A DNA stretch of 64,000 nucleotides from Alkalidesulfovibrio alkalitolerans DSM 16529 (lineage in GTDB: Bacteria > Desulfobacterota > Desulfovibrionia > Desulfovibrionales > Desulfovibrionaceae): assembly GCF_000422245.1 (NCBI RefSeq), contig NZ_ATHI01000026.1, positions 372,001 through 436,000 on the forward strand, given 5' to 3'. How positions within the stretch are numbered: the first letter of the stretch is position 1; every line of letters starts with the position of its first letter. Positions 14,892-34,865 of this stretch are shown piece after piece. The translations under genes were made by a program, and so were the position numbers. The notes beneath the pieces are model-generated. The model saw nothing but the letters and a program-made list of their open reading frames with translations. It was not told the origin of the DNA and did no database searches.

Positions 14892-17414
14892 TCAGGATTC
14901 TTGCTGTTTTCTCGCCAGCACATAACGTGTCGTGGGCCCCTTGCCAATTTTTTCGAGCAGGCCTCGCGCGACAAGGTCTTGGATGTCGTAAGTGGCGGTT
15001 CGCTTGGATATGCTGCCATCCATGAGACGAAGGAGATCCTTGCTCGTGATGTCGCCATTGCGCACGGCAAACTCGTAGGCCGCTATTTGCCTCCGGTTGA
15101 GGTCCGGTGGGAATGTATCGCGCGGGGAGGACGACGACGAGCCGGTGGACAGCGGTTCGCGGTCGCCGTCGGGCGGCAGGAGGGGCGTGTCTCCATTTCG
15201 CGGTACCAACAACGAGGCGTCGGCCGTCTCCATGTCGAGATTGAGTTGTTCGGCCTGGATGATCTTGCCTTCGACCATGACTGCGGCAGTGATGATGACG
15301 TGTTTGAGCTCTCGGATGTTTCCGGGCCAATGGTAGATGACAAGCTTTTCGAGCGCCCCGCGCGACAAGGTAAGGCCGGACCGCCCAGCCATGCGCTCGG
15401 CTTCGCGAAGGAAGTGCAGCGCCAGAGAGGGAACATTTTGGCGATGTTCACGCAAAGGTGGGGTCTGAATGGTGATGACCTTCAATCTGTAATAAAGGTC
15501 TTCTCTGAATTTTCCCTGTTCTATGAGTGTCTTAAGGTCGAAGTTCGTGGCCGTGATCAGGCGCACGTCCACATCGGTCTCCTTATCGCTTCCCAAAGGT
15601 TTGACCTTGCGCATGGATATTGCTCGCAGCAAAGCCTGTTGCACCTTGAGTGACGCCGATTGAATCTCGTCCAGAAAAAGCGTTCCCCCGTTAGCCTCCA
15701 GAAACGCTCCGCGGCGGTCCGTCTTGCCGTCGGTGAATGCTCCCTTGACGTGCCCGAACAGCGTGTCGAGAAGCAGGTTTTCGTCCAGTTCTCCGCAATT
15801 GATGGATATGAACGGTTTGTCCGCGCGCCGCGAAAGCCGATGAACCGCTTCCGCGGCGAGTTGCTTGCCGGTGCCAGTCTCTCCCTCGATGAGCACGTCC
15901 ACATCGACCTGACCCGCCTTGGCGATATCGCGCTTCAGTTGCGACATGAGCGGTCCGGAGCCGATGAATTCGGGGAATACGTCATCGACTCCTGGCGGAT
16001 GGTGATCGACGGCGAGAGTGGCTGGCTCCTTGAGGGCTACCGACTCGATCTCCATGTCCTTGGCCCTGATTTCGTCGAATTGTTTCCGAATGGTCGCGAT
16101 CATTGAATTGATTGATTCCTTGAGGGTTTCGGCTTCGTATCCGGTCTCATGCAGCCGGATTTCCTCCCACCGCCCCTTGTCGCGAACGTGGGCGACCGCG
16201 GATGCCAGTTCGATCAGGCCGTGCGTGGTCCGACGAGCCGTGATCGCGATGACTCCGGTGATAGCCAGCACGGCGATGACGGTGATGACGATCATCACGT
16301 CAAGATGTCGGTAGCCCGCGAGCTCGATCAAGACGCTTCTGTCGACATACCCCACCCCGCCAATGACCACCGGCGCCTCCCCAAGAGACAAAACGAGTTG
16401 CACTGGAGCGTAGGCAAGAAAATAGTTGCGGTCGGAGGACCTGCCATAGGCATCGTCCACCGCGCGGAGCAGCCCTTTGCCTCCGTTTCGGGCGTCATCG
16501 ACGATTTGCCAGTAACGCCCCTCGTCGTCCGCAGGTCTGAACGCGTTTGGAAGTCCAGGCCTGCCAAGGGTTCCGCGTTTGACAGCACGGAATTCGAGGG
16601 TGTTCAGATCGGCCTCGGGGATTTCGACCGATTCGGATTGAAAGATCACCCATCCCTCATCGTCGAAAAAGAAAGTGTATCGGGAAAGGCGAGGATTGCG
16701 AGGAAAAGCAAAAACCGGCGATTTCTTCGAATCGTAAAGCGACAAGATGTTCCGGATATTGCGAGCGTCGATGGCAAGGTAGAGAAATCCTGTGATGTCC
16801 CCGTTCTCGTCCTGGCATGGAGTGACGAAGCGGATGACCTTCACTGAAAAGCGCGCGTGCGGATTCTCCTCGGTCGGAAAAGGATATTCCACCTCCTTAA
16901 ACCGCGAAAGCCAGACCTCGCCCATCTTCAGGCCATCGATCCGGCCATACAAAAGAACAGGACTTGGCCGGATTTCCCTCATCTCATCCGGGGTCAATCG
17001 GATGGTCATGTTTCCCTGGGTGACAAACGCGATGTGCTGTCCTTCTCGCTTGGGTATGTAGCCGAACTCGGTGAATATTTCTCCTCCGATGCCTTTCAGG
17101 TCGGAAAGATAGCGCGCCATCCCTTCGGGCGTTATCGGCATCCTCGCCGCGAAAAGCAGATCACGCTTGTACTTCGCGAGGTAGTCCTCGACCGCATGGG
17201 CAGTGGTCGTGGCGTGAAGTCTGGAGATGCGCTCAAGAGCGATGGATATGAACTCGGACGACGTCCAGTACGTGGCGTATCCCGTGGCGGCCAAGACTAT
17301 CATCGAGGAAGGGATGAGGGAAAGCAGCAGCCGAGTGCGCAGCTTGCGCCGCTCGGGCTTACGCTGGGAACGCGCCAGACGCAGGAACCAATCCTTCACA
17401 TCGCTTAAACGCAT
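14892..17414 (-). CDS. Membrane-bound sigma-54-activator-like regulator with periplasmic sensor
   Basis: An 840-residue protein. Order: membrane helix (LLLSLIPSSMIVLAATGYAT, about 28-48), a roughly 320-residue periplasmic double-CACHE-like sensor, a second helix (VMIVITVIAVLAITGVIAIT, about 370-390), HAMP (about 390-450), AAA+ sigma-54 activator domain (Walker A GETGTGKQ about 509; Walker B GGTLFLDEI about 580; WPGNIREL) and a C-terminal winged helix (SKDLLRLMDGSISKRTATYD). The sigma-54-contact loop reads GAFTDG instead of GAFTGA, and the DNA-binding part is not the usual Fis helix-turn-helix. The ATG at 17414 has GGGGAG 7 nt upstream. It is divergent from the CBS/symporter operon, whose promoter is sigma-54 type, so it is the obvious candidate regulator. 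The ligand is unknown. Confidence 0.9.
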   Translation of the reverse strand: MRLSDVKDWFLRLARSQRKPERRKLRTRLLLSLIPSSMIVLAATGYATYWTSSEFISIALERISRLHATTTAHAVEDYLAKYKRDLLFAARMPITPEGMARYLSDLKGIGGEIFTEFGYIPKREGQHIAFVTQGNMTIRLTPDEMREIRPSPVLLYGRIDGLKMGEVWLSRFKEVEYPFPTEENPHARFSVKVIRFVTPCQDENGDITGFLYLAIDARNIRNILSLYDSKKSPVFAFPRNPRLSRYTFFFDDEGWVIFQSESVEIPEADLNTLEFRAVKRGTLGRPGLPNAFRPADDEGRYWQIVDDARNGGKGLLRAVDDAYGRSSDRNYFLAYAPVQLVLSLGEAPVVIGGVGYVDRSVLIELAGYRHLDVMIVITVIAVLAITGVIAITARRTTHGLIELASAVAHVRDKGRWEEIRLHETGYEAETLKESINSMIATIRKQFDEIRAKDMEIESVALKEPATLAVDHHPPGVDDVFPEFIGSGPLMSQLKRDIAKAGQVDVDVLIEGETGTGKQLAAEAVHRLSRRADKPFISINCGELDENLLLDTLFGHVKGAFTDGKTDRRGAFLEANGGTLFLDEIQSASLKVQQALLRAISMRKVKPLGSDKETDVDVRLITATNFDLKTLIEQGKFREDLYYRLKVITIQTPPLREHRQNVPSLALHFLREAERMAGRSGLTLSRGALEKLVIYHWPGNIRELKHVIITAAVMVEGKIIQAEQLNLDMETADASLLVPRNGDTPLLPPDGDREPLSTGSSSSSPRDTFPPDLNRRQIAAYEFAVRNGDITSKDLLRLMDGSISKRTATYDIQDLVARGLLEKIGKGPTTRYVLARKQQES

Positions 17415-17540
17415 CGCCAATCTCCCCGTTTTGAACCGCGGCAAGCGCCCTGCCTCCCGTGGCGCCTTCTTCAGGCATGGCATGAAACCCCGACCATTTG
17501 CCCGGTATCGTCTCCAAGGACCCCACGGGCGCCCTGCGGC

Positions 17541-17610
17541 TATCGCGCAATAGAGCACTAGCAGGCTCTCCAATCACGCACAAGGAAAAGTTATGCATAA
17601 AATCGCGCAT
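17541..17610. promoter_or_regulatory. Candidate upstream activator sites (WATCGCGCAW)
   Basis: TATCGCGCAA (17541-17550) and AATCGCGCAT (17601-17610) are 60 bp apart, centre to centre, and lie 140-210 bp upstream of the sigma-54 promoter, a normal distance for enhancer sites. The same 10-mer occurs twice, inverted, upstream of the second sigma-54 promoter at 31396-31437. Function is inferred from recurrence and position. Confidence 0.4.
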
Positions 17611-17750
17611 GGTAGGGCAATGGAAGGCGCTTGCTCCACGCAATCGACCCTCTTCACATGGCGCCTTGGCCAAGATAGTGATAAAATAAACAAATAAAAA
17701 ACTAGTTTAATCAGCATGTTGTCGTTCAGCTGTCGCTTGCGCGAGCAGTT

Positions 17751-17767
17751 TAGGCACGGCATTTGAT
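17751..17767 (+). promoter_or_regulatory. Sigma-54 (-24/-12) promoter of first CBS/symporter operon
   Basis: TAGGCACGGCATTTGAT fits the consensus YTGGCACGRNNNTTGCW with two mismatches; GG and GA are separated by exactly 10 bp. It lies 123 bp upstream of the CBS gene and between that gene and the divergent sigma-54-activator-like gene. Confidence 0.65.
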
Positions 17768-17780
17768 AAGTTTAGCTCTG

Positions 17781-17794
17781 ATTTGCGCGCAAAT
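17781..17794. promoter_or_regulatory. Perfect palindrome near the expected transcription start
   Basis: ATTTGCGCGCAAAT is a perfect 14-bp palindrome about 13 bp downstream of the -12 element. It could be an operator for an additional repressor or a relative of the WATCGCGCAW sites. No function is established. Confidence 0.35.
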
Positions 17795-17890
17795 GGTTTT
17801 TCAGGTTCGCGCCACGAGGCGCGCCGAGTTCAGAAACATGGATCGTGCACGATCTCGACTCTTACGGAAAGTACCAGAGGAGCGAGAATG

Positions 17891-18445
17891 ATGAATGGAA
17901 CAGTCAAGGATTTCATGGTCCCCATTGGCAAGTTTCCCATGATCTCCGATACGGCGACCTTCGCCGGGGCGGTCATGGCGCTTGATCGCGCCCAGGAGGA
18001 ATATCTCTCGGGAAAAAGAGAGCAGCGCATCCTCCTCGTCCGCGACGAAGACAACAAGATCGTGGGCAAGCTCTCACCCATCGATGTCGTACGCGGCCTG
18101 GAGCCAGACTACGACAAGCTCGTCGATGAGCAGGCCAGCGCTCTGGTCGGCAATTTCGACTACGTCATCCAGACGATGAAGAATCAGGTCACTCTTTGGT
18201 CGAAGCCGCTCGATGACCTGTGCTCGACTGCCAAGGATATGCTTGTGCGGGATTTTGTGAGCAATCCTTCGCAGTCGCAGATCATCGGCGCAGAAGAGTC
18301 CCTCAATGCCGCTTTCCACCGCTTTGTCATGTTCAAGCACGACTCGCTTTTCGTGATGGACGGACAAAAACTTGTCGGGCTCATCCGTTTTTCGGACGTA
18401 TATAAGGAAATCAGCAGGCGAATAAAGGAAGTCTGCCGCCTGTAA
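17891..18445 (+). CDS. Stand-alone CBS-pair protein, module 1
   Basis: A 184-residue cytoplasmic protein made only of two CBS motifs. CBS1 runs from VKDFMVPIGKFPMIS to KIVGKLSPIDVVRGL; CBS2 from LVRDFVSNPSQSQII to QKLVGLIRFSDVYKEI, ending RRIKEVCRL. CBS pairs commonly bind adenine nucleotides or other small ligands and control a partner, often a transporter. The Met at 17891 is chosen by alignment to the paralogue at 31689 (MNERV against MNGTV) and an AGGAG 8 nt upstream. It is the first gene after the sigma-54 promoter and 55 bp before the symporter gene. The paralogue at 31689 is very similar; the one at 21267 is more divergent. A role gating the symporter is inference. Confidence 0.85.
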   Translation: MNGTVKDFMVPIGKFPMISDTATFAGAVMALDRAQEEYLSGKREQRILLVRDEDNKIVGKLSPIDVVRGLEPDYDKLVDEQASALVGNFDYVIQTMKNQVTLWSKPLDDLCSTAKDMLVRDFVSNPSQSQIIGAEESLNAAFHRFVMFKHDSLFVMDGQKLVGLIRFSDVYKEISRRIKEVCRL

Positions 18446-18500: not shown

Positions 18501-19955
18501 ATGAGTGCTCACGCAGCTCCAGGCAATTCGCCCGATGAACTCGTCGTCCACGAAGAAGAATCCCAGGGACCGGTGCAATCCGGCCGGACGATACTGCTCA
18601 AGGTTCTTTTCGCCTTCGCCGTGGGCATAGGCATTTATCTGCTGCCCACCCCCGAAACCCTTCCTGCGCAGGGCCATAAATTCCTGGCTCTGGTGACTAC
18701 GGTGATCATCCTGTGGGTGTCCGAGGCCATCCCCATCGGCGTGACCGCGCTTTGCGCCGCCGCCGGCCTCATCCTCTTCGGCATCGAGTCGCCAAACAGG
18801 GCGTGGGCACCCTTCGCCAGCCCCGCGGTCATGTTCGTGCTCATGATCATCATGTTCGGCGTGGTGTTGAACGAGGTCGGCTTGGCCAACCGCATCATGT
18901 CGTGGATATTCAAGATAGCCGGAACAGGCGTCAAGCGGCTGAGCTTCGTGCTGGCCGTGGGCTGCACCATGCTGGCCACGATCTTTCACGATGCGACAGT
19001 CACGGTCATCATGATCTTCGCCCTGGTCCCAGTGCTGCGTGCCATGGGGATCACTCCGGGTAAAAGCAACAATCTTTCCAAATTTTTCATCATCCTCATT
19101 CCCCTGGCCGCATCCGCTGGCGGATTCGGCACGCTGCTGGGTGGCGGCAGAAACCCGCTGGCCGTCGAAATCCTCGCCAAGTACACCAACGGCGCGGTCA
19201 ACGTCGGGTTCATGGAATACCTCATCATCCAGTTTCCCCTTTCCATATTCACAGCCCTCGCCACATGGGCGGTAGTGTACATGATCTTCAGGCCCAAGGA
19301 GAAAGAGCTCCCCGCAGCCGTCAGGATCGAGAAGATGCCGCCCATGCGAGGCAAGGAACTCGGCGTGACCATCATCTTCACGCTGACCTTCATCCTCTGG
19401 ACCTTCTCGGATCTCACGGGCTGGCACGTGAGCGTGGTCGCCGCCCTGGCTCTGGCGGGATTCTGCGGTCCAAAGTTCATCTCGTTCAAGACCATCTGCG
19501 ACAAGTTCCCGTGGGAGTCGTGGATCGTTTTCGGCGCCGGCGTCTCCCTTGGCGCGTCGATGCTCAACTCGGGCGCGGGCAAGTATCTGGCGGAAGTCTG
19601 CTTGCCGCTCTTGCAGGGGCAACCTTCATTCCTGGTTTTCTATGGGATGGGCTTCTTCGGGTCGTTCCTTTCTAGCATGATGAGCAACTCGGCGGCCGTG
19701 GCCCTGACGCTGCCCATCACCCTGCCCATGGCCGAGATGCTGAACATGTCGCCTCAGGCCGTGGCGCTGCTCGCACCCATAACCACCTCGTTCATCATGC
19801 TGGTCATCGGCTGTCCGCCGACCATCATCGCCTACAGCACCGGCTATTTCAGCCAAGTGGATTTCATCAAGGTGGCCGTGCCCTGGTGTCTGGTTCTGCT
19901 CGGCGTGGCCGTCGTGGGGGTCATGTTCTACTGGCCGATGATCGGATTCTATTAG
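18501..19955 (+). CDS. DASS/SLC13-like anion symporter, module 1
   Basis: A 484-residue integral membrane protein with about 11-12 helices and an acidic N-terminal tail (DELVVHEEESQGPVQSGR). It has the two-fold repeat of the divalent anion:Na+ symporter/ion-transporter superfamily: TEAIPIG-like VSEAIPIGVTALCA, GGFGTLLGGGRNPLAVEI in the first half; MSNSAAVALTLPITLPMAEM and IGCPPTIIAYSTGYFSQ in the second. At the position of the first SNT sodium motif it reads HDATVTVIM, whereas the second retains SNSA. CGGAGG precedes the ATG by 8 nt. Sulfate or dicarboxylate is the likely substrate class; the sequence cannot decide. Paralogues are at 21897 and 32310. Confidence 0.88.
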   Translation: MSAHAAPGNSPDELVVHEEESQGPVQSGRTILLKVLFAFAVGIGIYLLPTPETLPAQGHKFLALVTTVIILWVSEAIPIGVTALCAAAGLILFGIESPNRAWAPFASPAVMFVLMIIMFGVVLNEVGLANRIMSWIFKIAGTGVKRLSFVLAVGCTMLATIFHDATVTVIMIFALVPVLRAMGITPGKSNNLSKFFIILIPLAASAGGFGTLLGGGRNPLAVEILAKYTNGAVNVGFMEYLIIQFPLSIFTALATWAVVYMIFRPKEKELPAAVRIEKMPPMRGKELGVTIIFTLTFILWTFSDLTGWHVSVVAALALAGFCGPKFISFKTICDKFPWESWIVFGAGVSLGASMLNSGAGKYLAEVCLPLLQGQPSFLVFYGMGFFGSFLSSMMSNSAAVALTLPITLPMAEMLNMSPQAVALLAPITTSFIMLVIGCPPTIIAYSTGYFSQVDFIKVAVPWCLVLLGVAVVGVMFYWPMIGFY

Positions 19956-20013: not shown

Positions 20014-20463
20014 ATGGTTCAGGAAAAGCCGAAACTCTTGCTTGTCGACGACGAGGAGCGGTTTCGCACGACCTTGGGAAAGCGTCTCGTCGAGGGAGGC
20101 TACGAAGTCTTGAGCGTGGGCAGCGGGATGGAAGCGCTCGAAGTTCTGGCTCGGACTCCGGTGGACGTTGTGGTTCTCGACATAAGGATGCCTGGCTTGA
20201 GCGGCATCGAAACCCTGGCCGAGATCCGCGAAAAGCACATCGGGGTCGAAGTCCTGCTCTTGACCGGCCATGCCGACGTGCCCTCCGCCGTGGAGGGAAT
20301 GAGGCTCGGCGCTTTCGACTACCTGATGAAGCCGTATGAGTTTCAGGGGCTGGTCGCGAAAATTCAGGATGCCTACGCGGTCAAGCTTGAGCGTGACGAG
20401 AGGATCCGCAAGGCCGAGGAACGCGCGCAACTCGACAAGCTCGAAAAAAGCATGCGTTTTTAG
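20014..20463 (+). CDS. Receiver-only response regulator, module 1
   Basis: A 149-residue single REC domain without output domain. It has the acidic pair (LLLVDDEERFR), phospho-acceptor Asp in VVVLDIRMPGLSG, Thr in LLLTGHADVPSAVEG, and Lys in FDYLMKPYEFQGL. The C-terminus is a charged helix (ERDERIRKAEERAQLDKLEK, then SMRF). The receiver resembles those of NtrC/DctD-type regulators, but the AAA+ and DNA-binding parts are absent. AGGAGG precedes the ATG. It follows the symporter by 58 bp. It probably works as a phospho-relay intermediate or by protein contact. Paralogues at 33855 and 34416 share the same tail, which may be the partner-binding element. Confidence 0.9.
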   Translation: MVQEKPKLLLVDDEERFRTTLGKRLVEGGYEVLSVGSGMEALEVLARTPVDVVVLDIRMPGLSGIETLAEIREKHIGVEVLLLTGHADVPSAVEGMRLGAFDYLMKPYEFQGLVAKIQDAYAVKLERDERIRKAEERAQLDKLEKSMRF

Positions 20464-20476
20464 GTCTTGCATCCAG

Positions 20477-20512
20477 CCATTTCCCCGTCGCGGCGCTCCG
20501 GCGGGGAAATGG
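20477..20512 (+). other. Hairpin after the first receiver gene
   Basis: CCATTTCCCCG (20477-20487) pairs with CGGGGAAATGG (20502-20512) across a GC-rich loop. There is no U-run. It could end the upstream transcript segment or stabilise its mRNA. Confidence 0.55.
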
Positions 20513-20543
20513 CGAATCCGATTCGGTGGATGGAGAGATGGGA

Positions 20544-20777
20544 ATGAAGGACGAAGCTTTTAGCAAGGAAATGCGGACGGGAACGGAAAAGGCTGCCCCT
20601 GAGCCCGGCGCCGCGTCCGAGTTTGTCCCGTTCAAGGCGCTTCATCACCTGCCTCGCGGCAAAAACGCCTGGAACCCCGCCATCCTGAAGAAGTGGTGGT
20701 TCTGGCCTGCGAGCGTGCTGGGTCTCATCCTTCTGAACGTGCTGTGCACGCTCGTGAGAACGCTTCTGGGCGAATGA
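20544..20777 (+). CDS. Small single-span membrane protein
   Basis: A 77-residue protein with a charged N-terminal half (MKDEAFSKEMRTGTEKAAPE) and one C-terminal membrane helix (WWFWPASVLGLILLNVLCTL, about 52-71), ending VRTLLGE. GGAG lies 8 nt before the ATG at 20544; two in-frame ATGs just upstream have worse spacing. It sits between two receiver genes in the same operon, and no counterpart is seen in the module at 31.7 kb. No family is recognised. An inner-membrane accessory or scaffold for the symporter or kinases is possible but is inference. Confidence 0.65.
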   Translation: MKDEAFSKEMRTGTEKAAPEPGAASEFVPFKALHHLPRGKNAWNPAILKKWWFWPASVLGLILLNVLCTLVRTLLGE

Positions 20778-20804
20778 CCCGGAGGAACCCAAGGAGAGCT
20801 TGCC

Positions 20805-21218
20805 ATGATGCCCGTTGCTTCCGGCCAAAACGCAGTGGTTCCCAGAATACTTCTGGTGGACGACGAAGAACGCTTCCTTCGCACCCTGGGCAAGCGCATG
20901 CTGGAACGCAATCAGAACGTCGTCACTGCGAGCAGCGGTCTGGAAGCTCTACGCATCGTTTCGGAGCAACCCATTGATGTGGTCGTTCTGGATGTGAAGA
21001 TGCCGGGTTTGGACGGCCTGGAAACCCTGACGGAGCTCAAGAAACGTCATCCAGAAACGGTGGTGATCCTGCTTACCGGGCATGCCTCGATCGAGATGGC
21101 CACCGAGGGGGTGCGCATGGGAGCGTTCGAGTATCTGATGAAACCCTGCGATGTGGACACCCTCATTGACCACATCGGAAGAGCATATGCCCAGAAGCTG
21201 GAGCGCAGGCGCGCCTGA
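20805..21218 (+). CDS. Receiver-only response regulator
   Basis: A 137-residue lone REC domain: ILLVDDEERFLRTLGKRM, phospho-acceptor in VVVLDVKMPGLDGLE, VILLTGHASIEMATEGV, and FEYLMKPCDVDTLIDHIG. It has no output domain. The C-terminal tail (YAQKLERRRA) is shorter than in the other island receivers, and MKPC replaces MKPY, grouping it with the receiver at 27420 rather than with the symporter-linked ones. AAGGAG precedes the ATG pair. It lies 27 bp after the small membrane protein gene and 48 bp before the second CBS gene. The likely donors are the two CACHE kinases downstream. Confidence 0.88.
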   Translation: MMPVASGQNAVVPRILLVDDEERFLRTLGKRMLERNQNVVTASSGLEALRIVSEQPIDVVVLDVKMPGLDGLETLTELKKRHPETVVILLTGHASIEMATEGVRMGAFEYLMKPCDVDTLIDHIGRAYAQKLERRRA

Positions 21219-21266
21219 TCACCGGGGCATTGGCGGCAATCAAGCCGGAAGACGTGGAGGAAGAAC

Positions 21267-21827
21267 ATGGAATCGATGACTGTCGAAAAACTGATGATAC
21301 CTGCCGAGCGATTCCCGAGGATATCCGAGGAGGAGACGTTCGGAACGGTGGTGAGGACGCTCAACCAATGCCACGAGGATTACAAATCGGGAAAAAGCGA
21401 ACAGTGCATCCTGCTGGTTCACGACGAGAGGGGTCGCGTCGTGGGGAAAATATCCCCCATGGACGTTTTGCGTGGGCTCGAACCCCAGTACTCGAAGATG
21501 GGCGAGGCCGTGGGCGCCCATACCCTTGGCGCCTCGTACGATCACATGATGCGCTCGCTCTTCGATCAAGCGACCCTGTGGACAAGGCCTCTCAAGGAAC
21601 TTTGCTCCAAGGCGCGCGACGTGAAGATCAAGGATTTCATCCGCCGTCCCACCGCCGCGCAGACGGTGGACATCACGGACAGCCTCGACCAGGCGGTGCA
21701 CCGTTTCGTCATGGGCCGCCACGATTCGCTGTTTGTCACCGACGGCGCGCAGCTTCGCGGGATGCTGTTGTTTTCCGACCTGTACGCGCACATGTCCAGA
21801 ATCATGAACGAGACCTGCAACCTCTAA
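21267..21827 (+). CDS. Stand-alone CBS-pair protein, module 2 (divergent copy)
   Basis: A 186-residue CBS-pair protein: VEKLMIPAERFPRIS to RVVGKISPMDVLRGLEP, then VKIKDFIRRPTAAQTV to QLRGMLLFSDLYAHM. It is clearly homologous to the module 1 and 3 proteins but much more divergent, with a different C-terminus (SRIMNETCNL). GGAGG precedes the ATG by 8 nt. It is followed by symporter 2 after a 69-bp gap. Divergence from the other two suggests a different ligand setting or an older duplication. Confidence 0.85.
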   Translation: MESMTVEKLMIPAERFPRISEEETFGTVVRTLNQCHEDYKSGKSEQCILLVHDERGRVVGKISPMDVLRGLEPQYSKMGEAVGAHTLGASYDHMMRSLFDQATLWTRPLKELCSKARDVKIKDFIRRPTAAQTVDITDSLDQAVHRFVMGRHDSLFVTDGAQLRGMLLFSDLYAHMSRIMNETCNL

Positions 21828-21896
21828 CACGACGGGATGGTTTCCCGCACAGCGGGAAAGGAGAAAGCGCAAACGTAATGAGAAGGGGTGTTCGAA

Positions 21897-23360
21897 ATGA
21901 CCGCTGAAGCCAAGAAAGCAGATTATAGAGATCGGCCTGAAGACGAACTCCTCGTGGAGGAGCATCCTTCCGGCCCCGAACAATCAGGCCGCAGCATAAT
22001 AATAAAAGTGCTGCTGGCCATTGCAGTGGGACTAGGCGTCTACGCCTTGCCTACACCGGATAATTTGTCTCCCGAGGGGCACAGATTCCTCGCGTTGCTT
22101 CTGTCCATCGTTATCCTGTGGGTTACGGAAGCCATACCGATCGGCGTCTCAGCGCTGGTCGCGGCGGCCGGATTGATCCTCTTCGGCATTCAAAGTCCTG
22201 GTGCGGCCTGGGCTCCCTTCGCCAGCCCGGCGGTCATGTTCGTGCTCATGATCGTCATGTTCGGCGTCGTGCTCAACGAAGTGGGCCTGGCAAACAGGAT
22301 CATGTATTACGTGTTCAAGATGGCGGGCACAGGAGTCAAGAAGCTCAGCTTCGTGTTGGCTGTTGGCTGTACGATGATGGCCACCGTTTTCCATGATGCA
22401 ACTGTCACGGTCATCATGATTTTCGCCTTGGTCCCGGTTTTTGTGTCCATGGGGATAACGCCCCTCAAAAGCAACAATCTTTCGAAGTTTTTTATAATTC
22501 TCATTCCCTTGGCATCATCGGCCGGCGGTTTCGGAACGCTGCTAGGCGGCGGGCGAAATCCCCTGGCTGTCGAAATATTGCAGTCGTTCACCAATGGCAA
22601 GGTCACGGTCGGCTTCATGGAGTACATCGTGATCCAGTTTCCTCTGGCCTTTCTGACCGCGGTGGCCACCTGGGGCGTACTCTGGCTGATCTTCAGGCCC
22701 AAGGAAAAGGAACTGCCCGCCGAGGTCATGATGGATAAGATGCCTCCCATGCGCGGCAAGGAACTTGGCGTGACGATCATTTTCACCCTCACGTTCATCA
22801 TGTGGACCCTTTCCGATCTCACCGGCTGGCATGTGAGCGTCGTGGCCGCCTTGGCGCTGGCCGGTTTCTGCGGCCCAAAGTTCATTTCCTTCAAGACGAT
22901 CTGCGACAAATTCCCTTGGGAATCCTGGATCGTCTTCGGCGCAGGCGTGTCAATGGGCGCGGCGATGTTGAGCTCCGGAGCCGGCCAGTACCTCGCCGAA
23001 GTCTGCCTGCCGCTTCTCGATGGGCAGCCCTCCTTCGTCGTCTTCTATGGCTTCGGCTTCTTCGGATCGTTCCTGTCGAGCCTCATGAGCAACTCGGCGG
23101 CGGTGGCCCTCACCCTGCCCATCACGTTGCCCATGGCCGAAATGATGAACATGTCGCCCCAGGCGGTGGCGCTGCTCTCACCGATCACGACCTCCTTCAT
23201 CATGCTGGTCATCGGCTGCCCGCCGACGATCATCGCCTACAGCACGGGCTACTTCAGCCAGATAGAATTCGTGAAGGTGGCCGTTCCCTGGTGTCTTACG
23301 TTGCTGCTCGTCTCCACCGTGGGAGTTCTCCTGTATTGGCCCATGATCGGATTCTATTGA
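21897..23360 (+). CDS. DASS/SLC13-like anion symporter, module 2
   Basis: A 487-residue paralogue of the symporter at 18501, colinear over the whole length: VTEAIPIGVSALVAAAG, FHDATVTVIMIFALVPVF, GGFGTLLGGGRNPLAVEI, MSNSAAVALTLPITLPMAEM, IGCPPTIIAYSTGYFSQIEF. The N-terminal tail differs (ADYRDRPEDELLVEEHPSGP) but keeps the acidic block before QSGRS. The HDATVT sequence again stands where an SNT motif is expected. The ATG at 21897 has AAGGGG 8 nt upstream; a GTG three codons earlier is an alternative start. No hairpin follows it and no receiver gene is attached, unlike the other two symporters. Substrate unknown; sulfate or dicarboxylate class is likely. Confidence 0.87.
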   Translation: MTAEAKKADYRDRPEDELLVEEHPSGPEQSGRSIIIKVLLAIAVGLGVYALPTPDNLSPEGHRFLALLLSIVILWVTEAIPIGVSALVAAAGLILFGIQSPGAAWAPFASPAVMFVLMIVMFGVVLNEVGLANRIMYYVFKMAGTGVKKLSFVLAVGCTMMATVFHDATVTVIMIFALVPVFVSMGITPLKSNNLSKFFIILIPLASSAGGFGTLLGGGRNPLAVEILQSFTNGKVTVGFMEYIVIQFPLAFLTAVATWGVLWLIFRPKEKELPAEVMMDKMPPMRGKELGVTIIFTLTFIMWTLSDLTGWHVSVVAALALAGFCGPKFISFKTICDKFPWESWIVFGAGVSMGAAMLSSGAGQYLAEVCLPLLDGQPSFVVFYGFGFFGSFLSSLMSNSAAVALTLPITLPMAEMMNMSPQAVALLSPITTSFIMLVIGCPPTIIAYSTGYFSQIEFVKVAVPWCLTLLLVSTVGVLLYWPMIGFY

Positions 23361-27950: not shown

Positions 27951-28352
27951 ATGAATCATTCTGATTATGAACGGATATGGCAGATTGTCGGGCCGCTCCT
28001 GCCCAAGCCGCCGCCGCGTCCTCGCGGAGGGCGCCGCCGCCTGAGCAATAAATCCGTCTTGCGAGGCATACTGTTCGTTTTGGAGACGGGCACTCCTTGG
28101 GAGCATCTGCCGACGGAGATGGGATGCGGATCGGGAATGACGTGCCTGCGACGCCTTCGGGAATGGCAAAACACCGGAGTCTGGGATCTCATCAGAGCGG
28201 TGCTTCTTGCGGTGATGAAAGAGGCGCACCGGCTTGACTGGAATCGATTTGCGGCATGCCCCAACCCGAAGCCGGTTCCTCGAAGAAGCAAGAAACGGTT
28301 TGCAGGTCGAGTTGGGGAAAGCGGAGAAAAACGCAAAGAGATTTCAGCATAG
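27951..28352 (+). pseudogene. IS5-type (IS427-like) transposase N-terminal fragment
   Basis: The frame starts like the helix-turn-helix part of IS5-family transposases: YERIWQIVGPLLPKPPPRPR, GGRRRLSNKSVLRGILFVLE, TGTPWEHLPTEMGCGSGMTC, then LREWQNTGVWDLIRAVLLAV. It keeps this similarity to about residue 97 (RLDWNRF) and then runs into unrelated sequence. The DDE catalytic half (second frame in IS427 elements) is absent, so this is a dead remnant. It separates the kinase/receiver block from the PEP-synthase-like gene and shows past insertion activity on the island. Confidence 0.85.
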
Positions 28353-28369: not shown

Positions 28370-28424
28370 GCGAAATCGAAACGGAACCGTTGCGACCAAA
28401 GTTCTCACGTAATGCGAGAGGTTG

Positions 28425-30992
28425 ATGCCCAAGCTTCTTGAGTTTTTCCGACGCAACTCCGTCATTCGTCGCGAGTCGCGCGACGATCTGACCCTCGAAC
28501 GGCGATACCGGGCGTTCAAGAGTCTCCTTGCTGGCAACAATCAGGCGCTGGAATTGCTGACCGACTTGGAGAGGCTCATCTACGAAGGGCGCTCCTTCAC
28601 CCAGGACGAGGCACTCGGTCTGGCCGAAACCCTGGTCGGCGGAGTCTACGACCTGGTCGAAGACCTTAATGCCCTTTCCGGGGGCGCATTTCCGGAATTG
28701 TTCGATCGAGCCGAAACTATCGGCATCAAGGCGCTTCGCGCTCTCTCGCGACGCCGTTCGTTCGATTCCCCACTGATCGTGCTCCCGCTCGAACGCCTGT
28801 CGCTGGAAAACCTGGATGAAGTCGGGGGCAAGGCGGCCAATCTCGGCGAGGTTGGCAACAGGGTCGGTCTCCCGACCCCGCAAGGATTCGCCGTGACCGC
28901 CTCGGCGGCCGCCCTCTTCATGCGCTATTCAGGATTGCAGGAAACCCTCGGCCGTATGCTGGCGAAGGTGGACGTCTCTGATACGGCTGCGCTCGAAGAC
29001 GCATGCGAGAATGCATGGCGCCATGTTCTATCGGCCCCGCTGCCGCCCGAACTCGAAGATGCCTTGAACTCGGCTGTGCGGAGCATGGTTTCACGGCTTG
29101 GGCCGGATCTGCGGCTGGCCGTCCGCTCGTCAGCGGTCTGCGAGGATTCAGGCGCATCCTTTGCCGGACAGCATACGACCGTTCTCGGCGTCGTGCCGGG
29201 CAATGTAGCCTCCGCATGGCGCGAGGTCGTTGCCAGCATCTTTACTCCCAGGGCGGTCTTTTATCGCCGGACCAAAGGGTACTCGGATCAGGACGTCATG
29301 ATGAGCGTGCTGGTGCTGGCCATGGTGCAGGCCCGGGCCAGCGGCGTGGCATACACCGTCGATCCGAATGCGACGACCATGCGGGAAATGCTCGTCTCCG
29401 GCGTATGGGGGCTGGGTTTGAGCCTCGTGGACGGATCGGTCGACGCTGATTTCTGGCGGGTGCGGCGTGACGATCACGCGATTGTCGCCAGCACGACCGC
29501 CCGAAAAACCGAACGTTTGAAGTTTCTTCCGGATGGCGGAACGACTGCGGAAGAATTGCCTGAACATCTGCGGACGGCGCCTTGCCTGACTCCTGAACAG
29601 GTTGCCAGGCTCGCGGAGTACGCCCAACGGCTTGAAGACCATTACGGGATGCCGCTCGATGTCGAATGGGCTCTTGACGAAGGTGAGCGTTTCCTCATCC
29701 TTCAGACGCGGCCGTTGATGCGCGCGCAAGAACTTCCGCAGGCGGAATGCTGCGAATTCGTTCCCGGGCACACTCCTTTGCTGGCCGGTGGTCAAGCGGC
29801 TTCGCCAGGCACCGCATCGGGCGTCGCCTATGTTGTCCAGACCAGCCATGCCCTTCATTCCATCCCCAAAGGATCCATCCTGGTCGCCAAGCAGACGTCG
29901 CCGGCCTATGTGGCCGCCATGGGCAAGGTGGCGGGCATCGTCACGGACACGGGCAGCGTGACGGGCCACATGGCTTCGGTGGCTCGGGAATTCGGGATTC
30001 CCACGCTGGTCGGGGTTGGCCGGGCCACCCACATCCTTCCCCACGGGCAGGAAATCACCCTGGACGCCACGAACAAGGTGGTCTATCCGGGGCGCGTCCG
30101 AGAAATTTTGTCCGAAAAAAAGCCCGTGAACCTCATGAAGGGCAGTCCTGTCTACAAGTCATTGCAGGAAGCGCTGAAACTCATCGCGCCGCTCAACCTG
30201 GTGGATCCGGAGAAGCCTGAATTCACGGCCAGGGGATGCCGCACCCTGCACGACGTCATCCGCTTCGCCCACGAGATGGCCATGCGCCGGATGTTCTCCA
30301 TCGCCGACGACATGGATATGGAAGCAGGACCGGCAGTGCCGCTTTTCACGGGCCTTCCATTGAATATCCTCGTCATCGACCTGGGTGGGGGGCTCGTTGA
30401 CCTTGGTGCAAGAAGAGTTGCCGAGATTGAGGATATCAGATGTATTCCTTTCAAGGCCCTTCTCGACGGAATGCGTCATCCCGATATTCGATGGCATGGC
30501 GAACGTGATTCTTCGTTGTCGGGATTCGACATGGTCGTGTCCGGCTCGGTGTTTCGTACGCCGCAGGCGATGAGAGGGCATGGTGGCACAAATTATTCAA
30601 TAATATCAAATGAATATATGAACTTTCATGGTCGGATGGGCCACCATTTCGCAACCGTGGACACCTACTGCGGCCCAGTCATAAACGACAACTACGTGAT
30701 GTTCTCCTTCAAGGGTGGGGCGGCCGACGTCGGAAGGCGCACGAGACGCGCACGGCTCATTGCCGAAACTCTGCGCTGGCTTGGATTCCGGGTTGTCCAG
30801 AAGGGCGATTCACTTCGAGCGGAGATAAAGAAGTACGACCAAAAACGCATTTCGGAGAAGGTGGATAACCTCGGACGTCTTCTGGGGGCCATGCGTCACC
30901 TGGACATGAGCCTGTCCGACGATGCCCAGATAGATTGGTATGTCGCTGAATTTTTGAAGGGCAACTATACATTCGATCGCAACCGCCCGTGA
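28425..30992 (+). CDS. PEP synthase/PPDK-like protein with unusual C-terminus
   Basis: An 855-residue protein. After an N-terminal helical region (about 1-120) comes the PEP/pyruvate-dikinase nucleotide-binding domain: VGGKAANLGEVGNRVGLPTP (about 134), LRLAVRSSAVCEDSGASFAG (about 228) and VMMSVLVLAMVQARASGVAY. The swivelling phosphohistidine domain follows (TDTGSVTGHMASVAREFGIP, about 505; His in TGHMAS). The PEP/pyruvate-binding TIM barrel is not recognisable. Instead there is a roughly 290-residue C-terminal domain with ILVIDLGGGLVDLGAR, GRMGHHFATVDTYCG and YVMFSFKGGAADVGRR. Such proteins are phosphotransferase-like with an unknown acceptor. Weak AGAGG precedes the ATG at 28425. It stands between the IS remnant and the second sigma-54 operon. 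Confidence 0.82.
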   Translation: MPKLLEFFRRNSVIRRESRDDLTLERRYRAFKSLLAGNNQALELLTDLERLIYEGRSFTQDEALGLAETLVGGVYDLVEDLNALSGGAFPELFDRAETIGIKALRALSRRRSFDSPLIVLPLERLSLENLDEVGGKAANLGEVGNRVGLPTPQGFAVTASAAALFMRYSGLQETLGRMLAKVDVSDTAALEDACENAWRHVLSAPLPPELEDALNSAVRSMVSRLGPDLRLAVRSSAVCEDSGASFAGQHTTVLGVVPGNVASAWREVVASIFTPRAVFYRRTKGYSDQDVMMSVLVLAMVQARASGVAYTVDPNATTMREMLVSGVWGLGLSLVDGSVDADFWRVRRDDHAIVASTTARKTERLKFLPDGGTTAEELPEHLRTAPCLTPEQVARLAEYAQRLEDHYGMPLDVEWALDEGERFLILQTRPLMRAQELPQAECCEFVPGHTPLLAGGQAASPGTASGVAYVVQTSHALHSIPKGSILVAKQTSPAYVAAMGKVAGIVTDTGSVTGHMASVAREFGIPTLVGVGRATHILPHGQEITLDATNKVVYPGRVREILSEKKPVNLMKGSPVYKSLQEALKLIAPLNLVDPEKPEFTARGCRTLHDVIRFAHEMAMRRMFSIADDMDMEAGPAVPLFTGLPLNILVIDLGGGLVDLGARRVAEIEDIRCIPFKALLDGMRHPDIRWHGERDSSLSGFDMVVSGSVFRTPQAMRGHGGTNYSIISNEYMNFHGRMGHHFATVDTYCGPVINDNYVMFSFKGGAADVGRRTRRARLIAETLRWLGFRVVQKGDSLRAEIKKYDQKRISEKVDNLGRLLGAMRHLDMSLSDDAQIDWYVAEFLKGNYTFDRNRP

Positions 30993-31554
30993 TGACGCGG
31001 GCCGGAAACCGACATTTCCGCAAGAATCGAAACCACCGCAGCGCATCTTGCCGGAAGCACAGAGTCTTTGCCTTTGCATTCCTGCGGTCTCGTCGCTCAG
31101 GTTCGCCCTCAGCCCCTTAAATTATAACCTGGGCACGAAAACCCAGCATGTTTTTTTCTCTCCTGGGTGATACGAGGTTTGCCGCTCACGGCCACCGTGC
31201 TCACACTCCCCGCTATCTTCTGTCGTCTCTGCCAGTGACGTCTGATCACAGCCCCCGCATGCTTCGTCCAAACATGATGTAACAGTTGGCGGGATTTTGA
31301 AAAGCCTGCCTGACTGCGACCTACAGGCTCCAGTTCACCTCAGTCGGTACTCACGCGCCTCGGCCTTGCCGTGTTGAGGACGCAGGCAACCTGCCAATCG
31401 CGCAAACTCGCCAATCTGCGGCCATGATTGCGCGATTAAATGCGCAGAGACTGCTCCGGTAAACTGCAATATGCATTTTTCCTGAATCAAAGTTAAGATT
31501 TTTTACTTTTTAAAAACAAATAGTTAAAACTGCGCAAGCTCTCAAAATCTACCC
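30993..31554. other. Long regulatory gap with inverted WATCGCGCAW sites
   Basis: There is no credible gene in this stretch of about 560 bp. It contains a weak terminator at its start. An inverted pair, AATCGCGCAA (31396-31405) and TTGCGCGATT (31428-31437), has centres 32 bp apart, about three helical turns, so both would face the same side. The pair lies roughly 120-160 bp upstream of a sigma-54 promoter, the usual place for activator binding. The last 60 bp are strongly AT-rich, which suits IHF-like bending. Confidence 0.5.
31128..31157 (+). terminator. Weak intrinsic terminator candidate
   Basis: CCTGGG (31129-31134), an AT-containing loop and CCCAG are followed by CATG and TTTTTTT. The stem is only 5-6 bp, but the U-run is good. 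It would end the PEP-synthase-like transcript 135 bp after its stop. Confidence 0.4.
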
Positions 31555-31571
31555 ATGGCACGCCAAGTGCT
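31555..31571 (+). promoter_or_regulatory. Sigma-54 (-24/-12) promoter of module 3 operon
   Basis: ATGGCACGCCAAGTGCT keeps TGGCACG at -24 and GC at -12 with the required 10 bp between GG (31557-31558) and GC (31569-31570). It lies 118 bp upstream of the CBS gene and resembles the promoter at 17751 in placement. Confidence 0.75.
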
Positions 31572-31688: not shown

Positions 31689-32243
31689 ATGAACGAACGT
31701 GTCAGGGATTTCATGGTCCCAATCAGCAAGTTCCCCATGATCTCCGAGGCGGCGACATTCGCAGGGGCGGTCATGGCGCTTGAGCGGGCGCAGGAGGAAT
31801 ACCTCTCCGGCAAAAAGGAGCAACGCATTCTTTTGATTCAGGACGACGAGGGGCGAATCGTCGGCAAGCTGTCGCCGATCGATGTCGTGCGAGGGCTTGA
31901 GCCCGACTACGACAAGCTCGTGGATGAGCAGGCGAGTTCCCGTGTCGTCAACTTCGACTACGTAATCCAATCCTCCAAGGAGCGGGCGTTGCTGTGGGCA
32001 AAGCCGCTCGACGATCTGTGCTCCCTGGCCAAGGATGTCCTGGTCAAGGATTTCATCCGTCATCCGACAAAGTCCCAGACCATCGAGAGCGACGAAATGC
32101 TCAACATCGCATTCCATCGCTTCGTCATGTTCAGGCACGACTCCTTGTTCGTTATGGAAGACGGCAAACTCGTCGGCTTGCTGCGGTTTTCCGACGTTTA
32201 TCGGGAGATCGTGCGGCGGATCAAGGAAGTCTGCCGTCTGTAG
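31689..32243 (+). CDS. Stand-alone CBS-pair protein, module 3
   Basis: A 184-residue near-duplicate of the module 1 CBS protein: VRDFMVPISKFPMISEAATF, RIVGKLSPIDVVRGLEPDYD, VKDFIRHPTKSQTI, GLLRFSDVYREIVRRIKEVC. Only a minority of positions differ. GAGG is 6 nt before the ATG. It is the first gene after the second sigma-54 promoter, again directly before a symporter. Keeping the same pair (CBS then symporter) behind separate sigma-54 promoters argues that the pair is one functional unit. Confidence 0.87.
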   Translation: MNERVRDFMVPISKFPMISEAATFAGAVMALERAQEEYLSGKKEQRILLIQDDEGRIVGKLSPIDVVRGLEPDYDKLVDEQASSRVVNFDYVIQSSKERALLWAKPLDDLCSLAKDVLVKDFIRHPTKSQTIESDEMLNIAFHRFVMFRHDSLFVMEDGKLVGLLRFSDVYREIVRRIKEVCRL

Positions 32244-32309
32244 CCTTTGAAGGAATGAGTGTCTTCTTTGGCGGTTTACACATCATCAAAGCAAAAACGG
32301 AGGGCTCAC

Positions 32310-33764
32310 ATGAGTGCTCACAATGTCAATACCGATTCTCCTGACGAGATCATCCTCCAGGAAGAAGAACCGCAAGGTCCCGTGCAGTCCGGTCGATCAA
32401 TCATCATAAAGGTCTTGATTTCATTGGGCCTTGGATTGCTCGTCTATCTGATTCCCATGCCGGAATCACTCCCCCCGGCCGGGCACAAGTTCCTTGGATT
32501 GGTCGTCGCAGTCATCGCTCTCTGGGTGACCGAGGCCATTCCCATCGGCATCACCGCACTGTGCGCGGCGTCCGGCCTGATACTCTTCGGTATTCAGTCG
32601 GCAAACAAGGCATGGTCGCCATTCTCAAGTCCGGCGGTCATGTTCGTGCTCATGATCATCATGTTCGGCGTGGTGTTGAACGAAGTGGGCCTCGCAAACC
32701 GAATCATGTCTTGGGTTTTCAAGCTGGCGGGACGCGGGGTCATGCGCCTGAGCTTTGTCATGGCCTTCAGTTGCACCATGCTGGCCACGTTCCTGCATGA
32801 CGCGACCGTCACGGTCATCATGCTCTTCGCCCTCGTTCCAGTGCTTCGCGCCATGGGCATCACGCCGGCCAAGAGCAACAACCTTTCCAAGTTCTTCATC
32901 ATCCTCATTCCGCTTGCAGCTTCCGCGGGCGGCTTCGGAACGCTGCTCGGCGGCGGCAGAAACCCGCTGGCCGTCGAAATCCTCACCAAGTACACCAACG
33001 GCGCGATCAAGGTCGGTTTTCTCGAGTACATGATCATCCAATTCCCGCTGGCCATCTTCACCGCCGTCGCGACGTGGCTGGTCGTGTACATGATCTTCCG
33101 GCCCAAGGAAAAGGAACTCCCGGCCGCAGTCGCCGTCGAGCAAATGCCGCCCATGCGCGGCAAGGAACTCGCCGTGTGCGTCATTTTCGGTCTCGCCTTC
33201 CTCCTTTGGGGATTCTCGGATCTCACAGGCTGGCACGTGAGCGTGGTCGCGGCCTTGGCCCTGGCCGGCTTCTGCGGACCCAAGTTCGTTTCCTTCAAGA
33301 CCATCTGCGACAAGTTCCCCTGGGAGTCGTGGATCGTGTTCGGCGCGGGCGTGTCCATGGGCCAGGCCATGCTGGATTCGGGCGCGGGCAAGTTCCTCGC
33401 CGAGCAGTTCCTGCCCCTTCTGCAGGGCCAGCATCCCTTCTTCGTGTACTACGGCATGGGCTTCTTCGGCTCGTTCCTTTCGAGCATGATGAGTAACTCC
33501 GCAGCCGTGGCCCTCACCCTTCCGGTGACCCTGCCCATGGCCGAAATGCTCAACATGTCGCCGCAGGCCGTGGCGCTGCTCGCCCCGATCACCACCTCGT
33601 TCATCATGCTGGTCATCGGCTGCCCGCCGACCATCATCGCCTACAGCACCGGCTATTTCAGTCAGACGGAATTCATCAAGGTGGCGGTGCCCTGGTGCCT
33701 GGTTCTGCTCCTTCTGTCGGTCATCAGCGTGCTCGTGTACTGGCCGATGATCGGATTCTACTAA
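32310..33764 (+). CDS. DASS/SLC13-like anion symporter, module 3
   Basis: A 484-residue paralogue, closest to symporter 1: acidic tail DEIILQEEEPQGPVQSGRSI, VTEAIPIGITALCAASG, LHDATVTVIMLFALVPVLRA, GGFGTLLGGGRNPLAVEILT, MSNSAAVALTLPVTLPMAEM, IGCPPTIIAYSTGYFSQTEF, and the shared end YWPMIGFY. The ATG at 32310 has CGGAGG 6 nt before it; a frame 17 codons longer has no ribosome site. Differences from symporter 1 cluster in the helices around VMRLSFVMAFSC and in the cytoplasmic loop with AAVAVEQMPPMRGKELAVC, so transport properties may differ. A hairpin and a receiver gene follow, as in module 1. Confidence 0.88.
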   Translation: MSAHNVNTDSPDEIILQEEEPQGPVQSGRSIIIKVLISLGLGLLVYLIPMPESLPPAGHKFLGLVVAVIALWVTEAIPIGITALCAASGLILFGIQSANKAWSPFSSPAVMFVLMIIMFGVVLNEVGLANRIMSWVFKLAGRGVMRLSFVMAFSCTMLATFLHDATVTVIMLFALVPVLRAMGITPAKSNNLSKFFIILIPLAASAGGFGTLLGGGRNPLAVEILTKYTNGAIKVGFLEYMIIQFPLAIFTAVATWLVVYMIFRPKEKELPAAVAVEQMPPMRGKELAVCVIFGLAFLLWGFSDLTGWHVSVVAALALAGFCGPKFVSFKTICDKFPWESWIVFGAGVSMGQAMLDSGAGKFLAEQFLPLLQGQHPFFVYYGMGFFGSFLSSMMSNSAAVALTLPVTLPMAEMLNMSPQAVALLAPITTSFIMLVIGCPPTIIAYSTGYFSQTEFIKVAVPWCLVLLLLSVISVLVYWPMIGFY

Positions 33765-33810
33765 CCGCCGAGGACACGACCGCCGATCACGCACCGCACA
33801 GACAACAAAC

Positions 33811-33837
33811 GCCCGCCGGCCAACAAGGCCGGCGGGC
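33811..33837 (+). other. Intercistronic hairpin, symporter 3 to receiver
   Basis: GCCCGCCGGCC (33811-33821), loop AACAA and GGCCGGCGGGC (33827-33837): a perfect 11-bp stem in the same place as the hairpin at 19970, with no U-run. Confidence 0.7.
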
Positions 33838-33854
33838 CTCACCCGGAGGAAACC

Positions 33855-34316
33855 ATGAGTGAGAATATGCCGATAGTATTGCTTGTCGATGACGAGGAAC
33901 GCTTTCGCACGACTCTTGGCAAGCGGCTGACCGAGGCGGGGATACCTGTCGAGACGGCGGGAAGCGGCATGGATGCCTTGCAAATTCTCGCCGAAAAGCC
34001 CGTTGACGTGGTCATATTGGACATCAAGATGCCCGGCCTAAGCGGCATCGAGACGCTGACCGAGATACGGAACAAGCACATCGGGGTCGAGGTGCTCCTC
34101 CTGACAGGCCATGCCGACGTGCCGTCGGCGGTGGAGGGAATGCGGCTCGGGGCCTTCGACTATCTGATGAAGCCGTATGAGTTCCAGGGGCTGCAGGCCA
34201 AGATACAGGAGGCGTTCAAGGTCAAGGTGGACCGGGACGAGCGCATCCGCAAGGCCCGGGAGCGTGCCGTCCTCGACAAGATCGCCTCGCCAAGAGCTTG
34301 GACGCGAGGGGATTGA
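33855..34316 (+). CDS. Receiver-only response regulator, module 3 (first)
   Basis: A 153-residue REC domain nearly identical in its core to the module 1 receiver: VLLVDDEERFRTTLGKRL, VVILDIKMPGLSGIETL, LLLTGHADVPSAVEGMRLGA, FDYLMKPYEFQGLQAKIQEA. The tail begins alike (DRDERIRKARERAVLDKI) but ends differently (SPRAWTRGD), as if the last codons were replaced. CGGAGG precedes the ATG. It follows the symporter directly, then another receiver gene follows 99 bp downstream. Confidence 0.9.
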   Translation: MSENMPIVLLVDDEERFRTTLGKRLTEAGIPVETAGSGMDALQILAEKPVDVVILDIKMPGLSGIETLTEIRNKHIGVEVLLLTGHADVPSAVEGMRLGAFDYLMKPYEFQGLQAKIQEAFKVKVDRDERIRKARERAVLDKIASPRAWTRGD

Positions 34317-34371
34317 TCGCTAATCGGGTCCGCATGGACCTAAACTTGAAAATTGTGTAGTCTACCCGCAT

Positions 34372-34396
34372 CCCCCGATCCAATCCGGATCGGGGG
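34372..34396 (+). other. Hairpin between the two module 3 receivers
   Basis: CCCCCGATCC (34372-34381), loop AATCC, GGATCGGGGG (34387-34396): a perfect 10-bp stem directly before the ribosome site of the next gene. No U-run. Confidence 0.6.
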
Positions 34397-34415
34397 AAAG
34401 CGCGGGAGAAAGGCC

Positions 34416-34865
34416 ATGAACCAGACCATGCCGAATATTCTCATCGTTGACGACGAGGAACGTTTCCGCATTACGCTGGGCAAGCGCCTGAAGGAAGCAG
34501 GCTTTCCGGTCGAAACAGTGGGTGGGGGACAAGAAGCGCTTGATCATCTCACGCAGCACGCGGTGGACGTCGTCATCCTGGACATAAAAATGCCCGGCCT
34601 GAACGGCATCGAAGTCCTGGCGGAAATCCGGCGCAGACATATCGGGGCCGAAGTGCTCCTGCTGACCGGCCATGCAGAGGTGGCTTCGGCTGTCGATGGA
34701 ATGCGGCTCGGCGCGCATGACTACTTGATGAAGCCGTACGAATTCCAAGGGCTGCAGGCCAAAATCCACGACGCCTACAAGGTCAAGCTGAATCGCGAGG
34801 AACGCCTGAGAAAAGCCGAAGCCCGGGCCCAACTCGACAAATTGGAAAAGAGCATCCGGTTTTAG
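34416..34865 (+). CDS. Receiver-only response regulator, module 3 (second)
   Basis: A 149-residue REC domain: ILIVDDEERFRITLGKRLKE, VVILDIKMPGLNGIEVL, LLLTGHAEVASAVDGMRLGA, HDYLMKPYEFQGLQAKIHDA, tail REERLRKAEARAQLDKLEKS and IRF. The tail matches the module 1 receiver at 20014 (KLEKSMRF), so these two keep the full-length form while the gene between them does not. GGGAG lies upstream of the ATG at 34416; the frame extends 21 codons further through the hairpin, which is not credible as coding. It is the last gene of the module. Confidence 0.9.
   Translation: MNQTMPNILIVDDEERFRITLGKRLKEAGFPVETVGGGQEALDHLTQHAVDVVILDIKMPGLNGIEVLAEIRRRHIGAEVLLLTGHAEVASAVDGMRLGAHDYLMKPYEFQGLQAKIHDAYKVKLNREERLRKAEARAQLDKLEKSIRF

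Follow-up and report, generated by a model that had tools for sequence, protein, structure and literature searches.

The protein encoded at 14892-17414 (minus strand, 840 aa) of the window, i.e. the whole 64-kb stretch of DNA analysed here, is most likely a sigma-54-dependent one-component transmembrane activator of anion-transporter operons, of the type known from DVU0151. Probably, this AAA+ regulator senses a chemical outside the cell and directly activates the neighbouring anion-transporter genes via sigma-54. The assignment is based on its domain architecture, the intact motifs of its AAA+ domain, a divergent -24/-12 promoter, a shared predicted operator and rpoN, which was found in the same genome. 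Against it stand the -12 base of the adjacent promoter, which is off consensus, and mutagenesis carried out elsewhere, in which every position of the GAFTGA motif proved important (PMC7057263).

Domain architecture of the regulator

The reading frame is free of internal stops, and its ATG is preceded by GGGGAG. A single chain comprises, in this order, a transmembrane segment, a Cache-like periplasmic domain, a second transmembrane segment, HAMP, AAA+ and a winged helix (all on the minus strand). The first-pass annotation had described a sensor, HAMP and AAA+ domain joined in one chain with a GAFTDG loop, which was confirmed by translation, Pfam, family profiles and models, and its proposal of a one-component transmembrane activator is supported. 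TM1 (17271-17333, residues 28-48; hydrophobic segment 29-47, hydropathy 1.74) lies in a region with the pattern L..LIP....L..TGY conserved across the family, while TM2 (16236-16301, residues 372-393) contains a hydrophobic segment at 373-391 with a hydropathy of 3.02. The intervening putative sensor (16302-17270, residues 49-371) gave a weak Pfam match to dCache_1 (E 0.0075), and among 19 family members matches reached E 3e-4 for dCache_1 and E 1.2e-4 for HAMP. A structure model of this domain, built from only two sequences and poor in quality (mean pLDDT 44), found its structural matches mainly among Cache-type sensor domains from chemoreceptors and kinases, and a sequence-based profile search of the domain against the PDB gave no usable match. 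With its sub-threshold Pfam matches and poor model, the Cache-like assignment is only suggestive. The HAMP-like linker follows at 16077-16235 (residues 394-446), with HAMP being matched in five of the 19 family members.

The AAA+ sigma-54 activator domain (15219-15974, residues 481-732; PF00158) is clearly recognized, with Sigma54_activat at 484-650 (E 1.2e-60) and AAA_lid_14 at 655-732, and AlphaFold pLDDT values exceed 90 over most of its length. Walker A, Walker B, sensor 1, arginine-finger and sensor 2 motifs are all intact. This AAA+ fold, together with the catalytic motifs, is shared with NtrC1, PspF and FleQ (Foldseek E about 1e-28 to 1e-25, with 1e-28 for NtrC1), whereas the membrane sensor, the winged helix in place of Fis and the GAFTDG loop set the regulator apart from them. 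The winged helix (14910-15116, residues 767-835) is supported by family alignment, a profile match and a model: Pfam gave a weak match to DIP2311-like_C (782-833, E 9e-5, under its cut-off), the C-terminal profile matched the C-terminus of the Fic family protein 8cil (E 0.005), and the domain was modelled as helix-helix-helix-strand with a pLDDT of about 77-85. As judged by eye, this is the only C-terminus lacking Fis among the sigma-54-activator AAA+ proteins of its own genome (19 proteins, of which 18 were readable after row L003 had been left out).

This architecture has already been published: Kazakov et al. 2015 (PMC4641369) reported DVU0151 and its orthologues to be one-component EBPs that combine a winged helix with a GAFSEA loop and face a divergent sigma-54 promoter, and DVU0151 is given there as the lone EBP without a Fis-type HTH. 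Both proteins share the one-component EBP layout, a non-Fis winged helix, a non-canonical loop, a long N-terminal region and a divergent sigma-54 promoter in front of a transport operon (PMC4641369). They differ in the loop (GAFTDG versus GAFSEA) and in the A at -12 of the adjacent promoter. Judged by the published description, the GAFTDG clade thus sits within a recognised kind of activator.

Loop 1 and the family in Desulfovibrionales

Loop 1 (15726-15743, minus strand; residues 558-563) retains F and T of GAFTGA and differs from it at two positions. Each of these two substitutions occurs singly in D. vulgaris, in DVU2106 (GAFTDA) and DVU0569 (GAFTGG), neither of which carries both. Sigma-54 targets are listed for the two proteins, and natural GAFTGA variants have been accepted for predicted activators (PMC4641369).

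Of the 348 genomes of the order, 182 contain homologues with the same domain order (E<=1e-100), and the phylum has further homologues in several families outside it. The regulator is the sole member of its family in its own genome. In a sample of 130 Desulfovibrionales homologues, the loop reads GAFSEA (54), GAFTEA (42), GAFTDG (12) or GAFSDA (10), with rarer forms occurring singly or in a few cases and exact GAFTGA only once. Exact GAFTDG is present in 11 further genomes, giving 12 that span two families, and GAYTDG in one; together, these homologues form one supported clade of 13 in a FastTree phylogeny. Homologue ends among the matches listed display the common C-terminal pattern RTAxYDL..LV..GLL...GxGPATRY (a few end early), and no Fis C-terminus occurs among the ends listed for the 130 homologues, in line with the earlier suggestion of a winged helix replacing Fis, which turns out to be a family trait. 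Because GAFTDG recurs in 11 further genomes and the winged helix is the C-terminus of the family, their combination is not due to chance. Both belong to the conserved traits of a family already recognised among sulfate reducers and are not signs of decay.

A match in Spirochaetaceae (L292) was rejected as a family member in view of its Fis-like C-terminus. Searching genome contigs with the regulator protein alone gave no match, and a second genome-contig search returned mostly generic activators. Several homologues deserve separate mention. L160, a second family copy in genome G333, carries GAFPEA, having lost the loop threonine, next to a weak promoter and is possibly a decaying paralogue. 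For the GAYTDG homologue (L089), which is basal to the clade, the promoter was not placeable and its neighbourhood gave no CBS/DASS match. One internal stop codon each was flagged in the homologues of G316, G314, G267, G266, G025 and G095.

Divergent promoter, predicted operator and target operons

A promoter near 17751 had been proposed earlier and is real, being located at 17752-17767 (plus strand; AGGCACG-GCAT-TTGAT), a position kept in the 12 GAFTDG genomes. It carries GG at 17753-17754 and G-A in place of G-C at 17765-17766. Across the family, 129 of the 130 homologues received a call for a divergent -24/-12-like site (a few of these calls being weak or mis-registered), with a median score of 17/18 outside the GAFTDG clade. 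Members of the GAFTDG group (12 genomes) have it at a distance of 215-337 bp from the start of the regulator; there, its score is reached by 0-1.5% of shuffles, and -24 GG and -12 TTG are retained throughout. The possible loss of sigma-54 contact raised in the first-pass annotation is unsupported, as no other block in the intergenic alignment of these 12 genomes is as conserved as the -24/-12 site and the catalytic motifs are intact; the contact may, however, be altered.

The likely DNA target of the regulator, as predicted from sequence, is ATCGCGCAA. This 9-mer occurs in 23 of 116 regions compared to 0.8 expected, and words around it are enriched 10- to 20-fold between regulator and promoter. 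In a held-out test, for which the seed word had been chosen beforehand by eye from the same family, the operator matrix found 2.7 sites per region versus 0.6 in shuffles. With the GAFTDG clade left out of the training set, the three best matrix sites in the window (17540, 31395 and 31426) are all located upstream of CBS/DASS operons. Predicted site 1, CTATCGCGCAATA (17540-17552, plus strand), scores highest in the window with 16.3 bits. Predicted site 2, CAATCACGCACAA (17571-17583, plus strand; 8.5 bits), lies 31 bp from site 1, and predicted site 3, AAATCGCGCATGG (17600-17612, plus strand; 8.8 bits), follows at about 30 bp from site 2; it was detected by a 17-column matrix for which all regions served as training set. 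Additionally, an operator-like site close to the promoter, TCGCTTGCGCGAGC, was placed at 17733-17746 (unstranded; 8.9 bits). The second CBS/DASS operon is preceded by two predicted sites at 31395-31407 (plus strand, 16.1 bits) and 31426-31438 (minus strand, 15.2 bits), ranking second and third. Exact WATCGCGCAAW occurs four times in the 3.2-Mb genome, and three of these copies precede the two target operons; the fourth directly follows a 3-isopropylmalate dehydrogenase-like gene (by eye), without a good promoter. Other exact matches in 12 relatives are mostly lone sites with no sigma-54 promoter nearby, and a strict palindrome search of the operator revealed no single clear arm spacing. A perfect palindrome, GATCGTGCACGATC, partly conserved within the GAFTDG clade, is found in the 5' region of the CBS gene (17841-17854) and resembles two fused operator half-sites.

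Downstream of the divergent promoter (all on the plus strand), a CBS-domain protein (17888-18445; PF00571), also divergent in the GAFTDG genomes examined, is followed by a DASS (SLC13-type) anion symporter (18501-19955; PF00939, E 7e-40; TIGR00785, E 4e-54, below its cut-off). Most homologues examined instead face another membrane-protein family, TauE/SafE-like by eye. Further same-strand genes at 20014-23360 encode two RR proteins (20014-20463 and 20805-21218), a CBS protein (21267-21827) and a DASS symporter (21888-23360). No operator or sigma-54 site was found before the second RR gene or the second CBS gene, and we infer that these genes are co-transcribed. The second predicted target operon (31689-34865, plus strand) consists of CBS (31689-32243; 76% identical to the first CBS), DASS (32259-33764) and two RR genes (33855-34316 and 34353-34865), and its -24/-12 promoter (31556-31571, plus strand; TGGCACG-CCAA-GTGCT) keeps C at -12. 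Two CBS/DASS operons are hence predicted to make up the regulon. Between them, 27951-28352 appears by eye to encode an N-terminal portion of an IS5-type transposase, and the large protein encoded at 28422-30992 contains a PEP-synthase-like region; in seven other loci, large proteins that form a cluster and are possibly related to the latter are found close to the regulator.

Loop 1, the -12 base and mode of action

The new observation of this study is that the adjacent promoter has A (four) or T (eight) at -12, and not the usual C, in all 12 GAFTDG genomes. For the trait counts across the homologues, L074, L089, L160 and L294 were excluded, and -12 of the mis-registered L130 promoter was set to C by hand from its sequence. 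One may ask whether GAFTDG and such promoters are a co-evolved, matched activator/promoter pair, with GAFTDG suiting A or T at -12; if true, this would show that loop 1 helps to read the -12 base. PspF loop 1 is reported to contact -12/-11 DNA (PMC7175178, PMC7057263), non-C at -12 is otherwise confined to three order members with a readable site, and a CBS/DASS operon of G113, a genome without GAFTDG, keeps C. However, the tree places the loop change as a single event, which leaves one independent pair, and the target operon type switched on about the same branch. Moreover, non-C at -12 arose four times in all, three times where the loop reads GAFSEA, and within the window the second operon combines the operator with C. 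The idea of a -12 base always matching the loop was dropped on these last two grounds. With the single loop event in addition, we treat co-evolution as no more than a lead that can be tested and consider it unlikely.

Less probable still is a sigma-54-independent, TyrR-like regulator that represses, or activates via another sigma factor. Two loop positions differing from GAFTGA and the off-consensus -12 would fit such a protein, but F and T of the loop and the -24 GG and -12 TTG elements are kept, near-perfect sigma-54 promoters occur across the family, and a search of 17300-18000 found no sigma-70-type site. That loop 1 has decayed locally or contains a sequencing error can practically be dismissed, given that 12 genomes from two families share these six residues, the open frame and the intact catalytic motifs; nor did the 130 homologues collected, as far as their ends were listed, include any that pair GAFTGA with a Fis domain at this place, which would have pointed to decay.

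For a sigma-54-dependent activator, the Cache-like domain would bind a ligand in the periplasm, which may be the transported anion, and the signal would pass via HAMP to the AAA+ domain, presumably assembled as a ring and using ATP. The winged helices would anchor the protein at operator sites located some 140-240 bp ahead of the start, and a DNA loop would let loop 1 reach and remodel sigma-54 at the promoter, resulting in transcription of the anion-transporter operons. GAFTDG would then be a form of loop 1 that is tolerated and specific to its clade. Such a transmembrane one-component activator would tie an outside signal directly to sigma-54 transcription, and the conserved predicted operator, together with a clade carrying a double loop substitution and a -12 change, may offer a natural set for studying the interplay of loop 1 and the -12 base.
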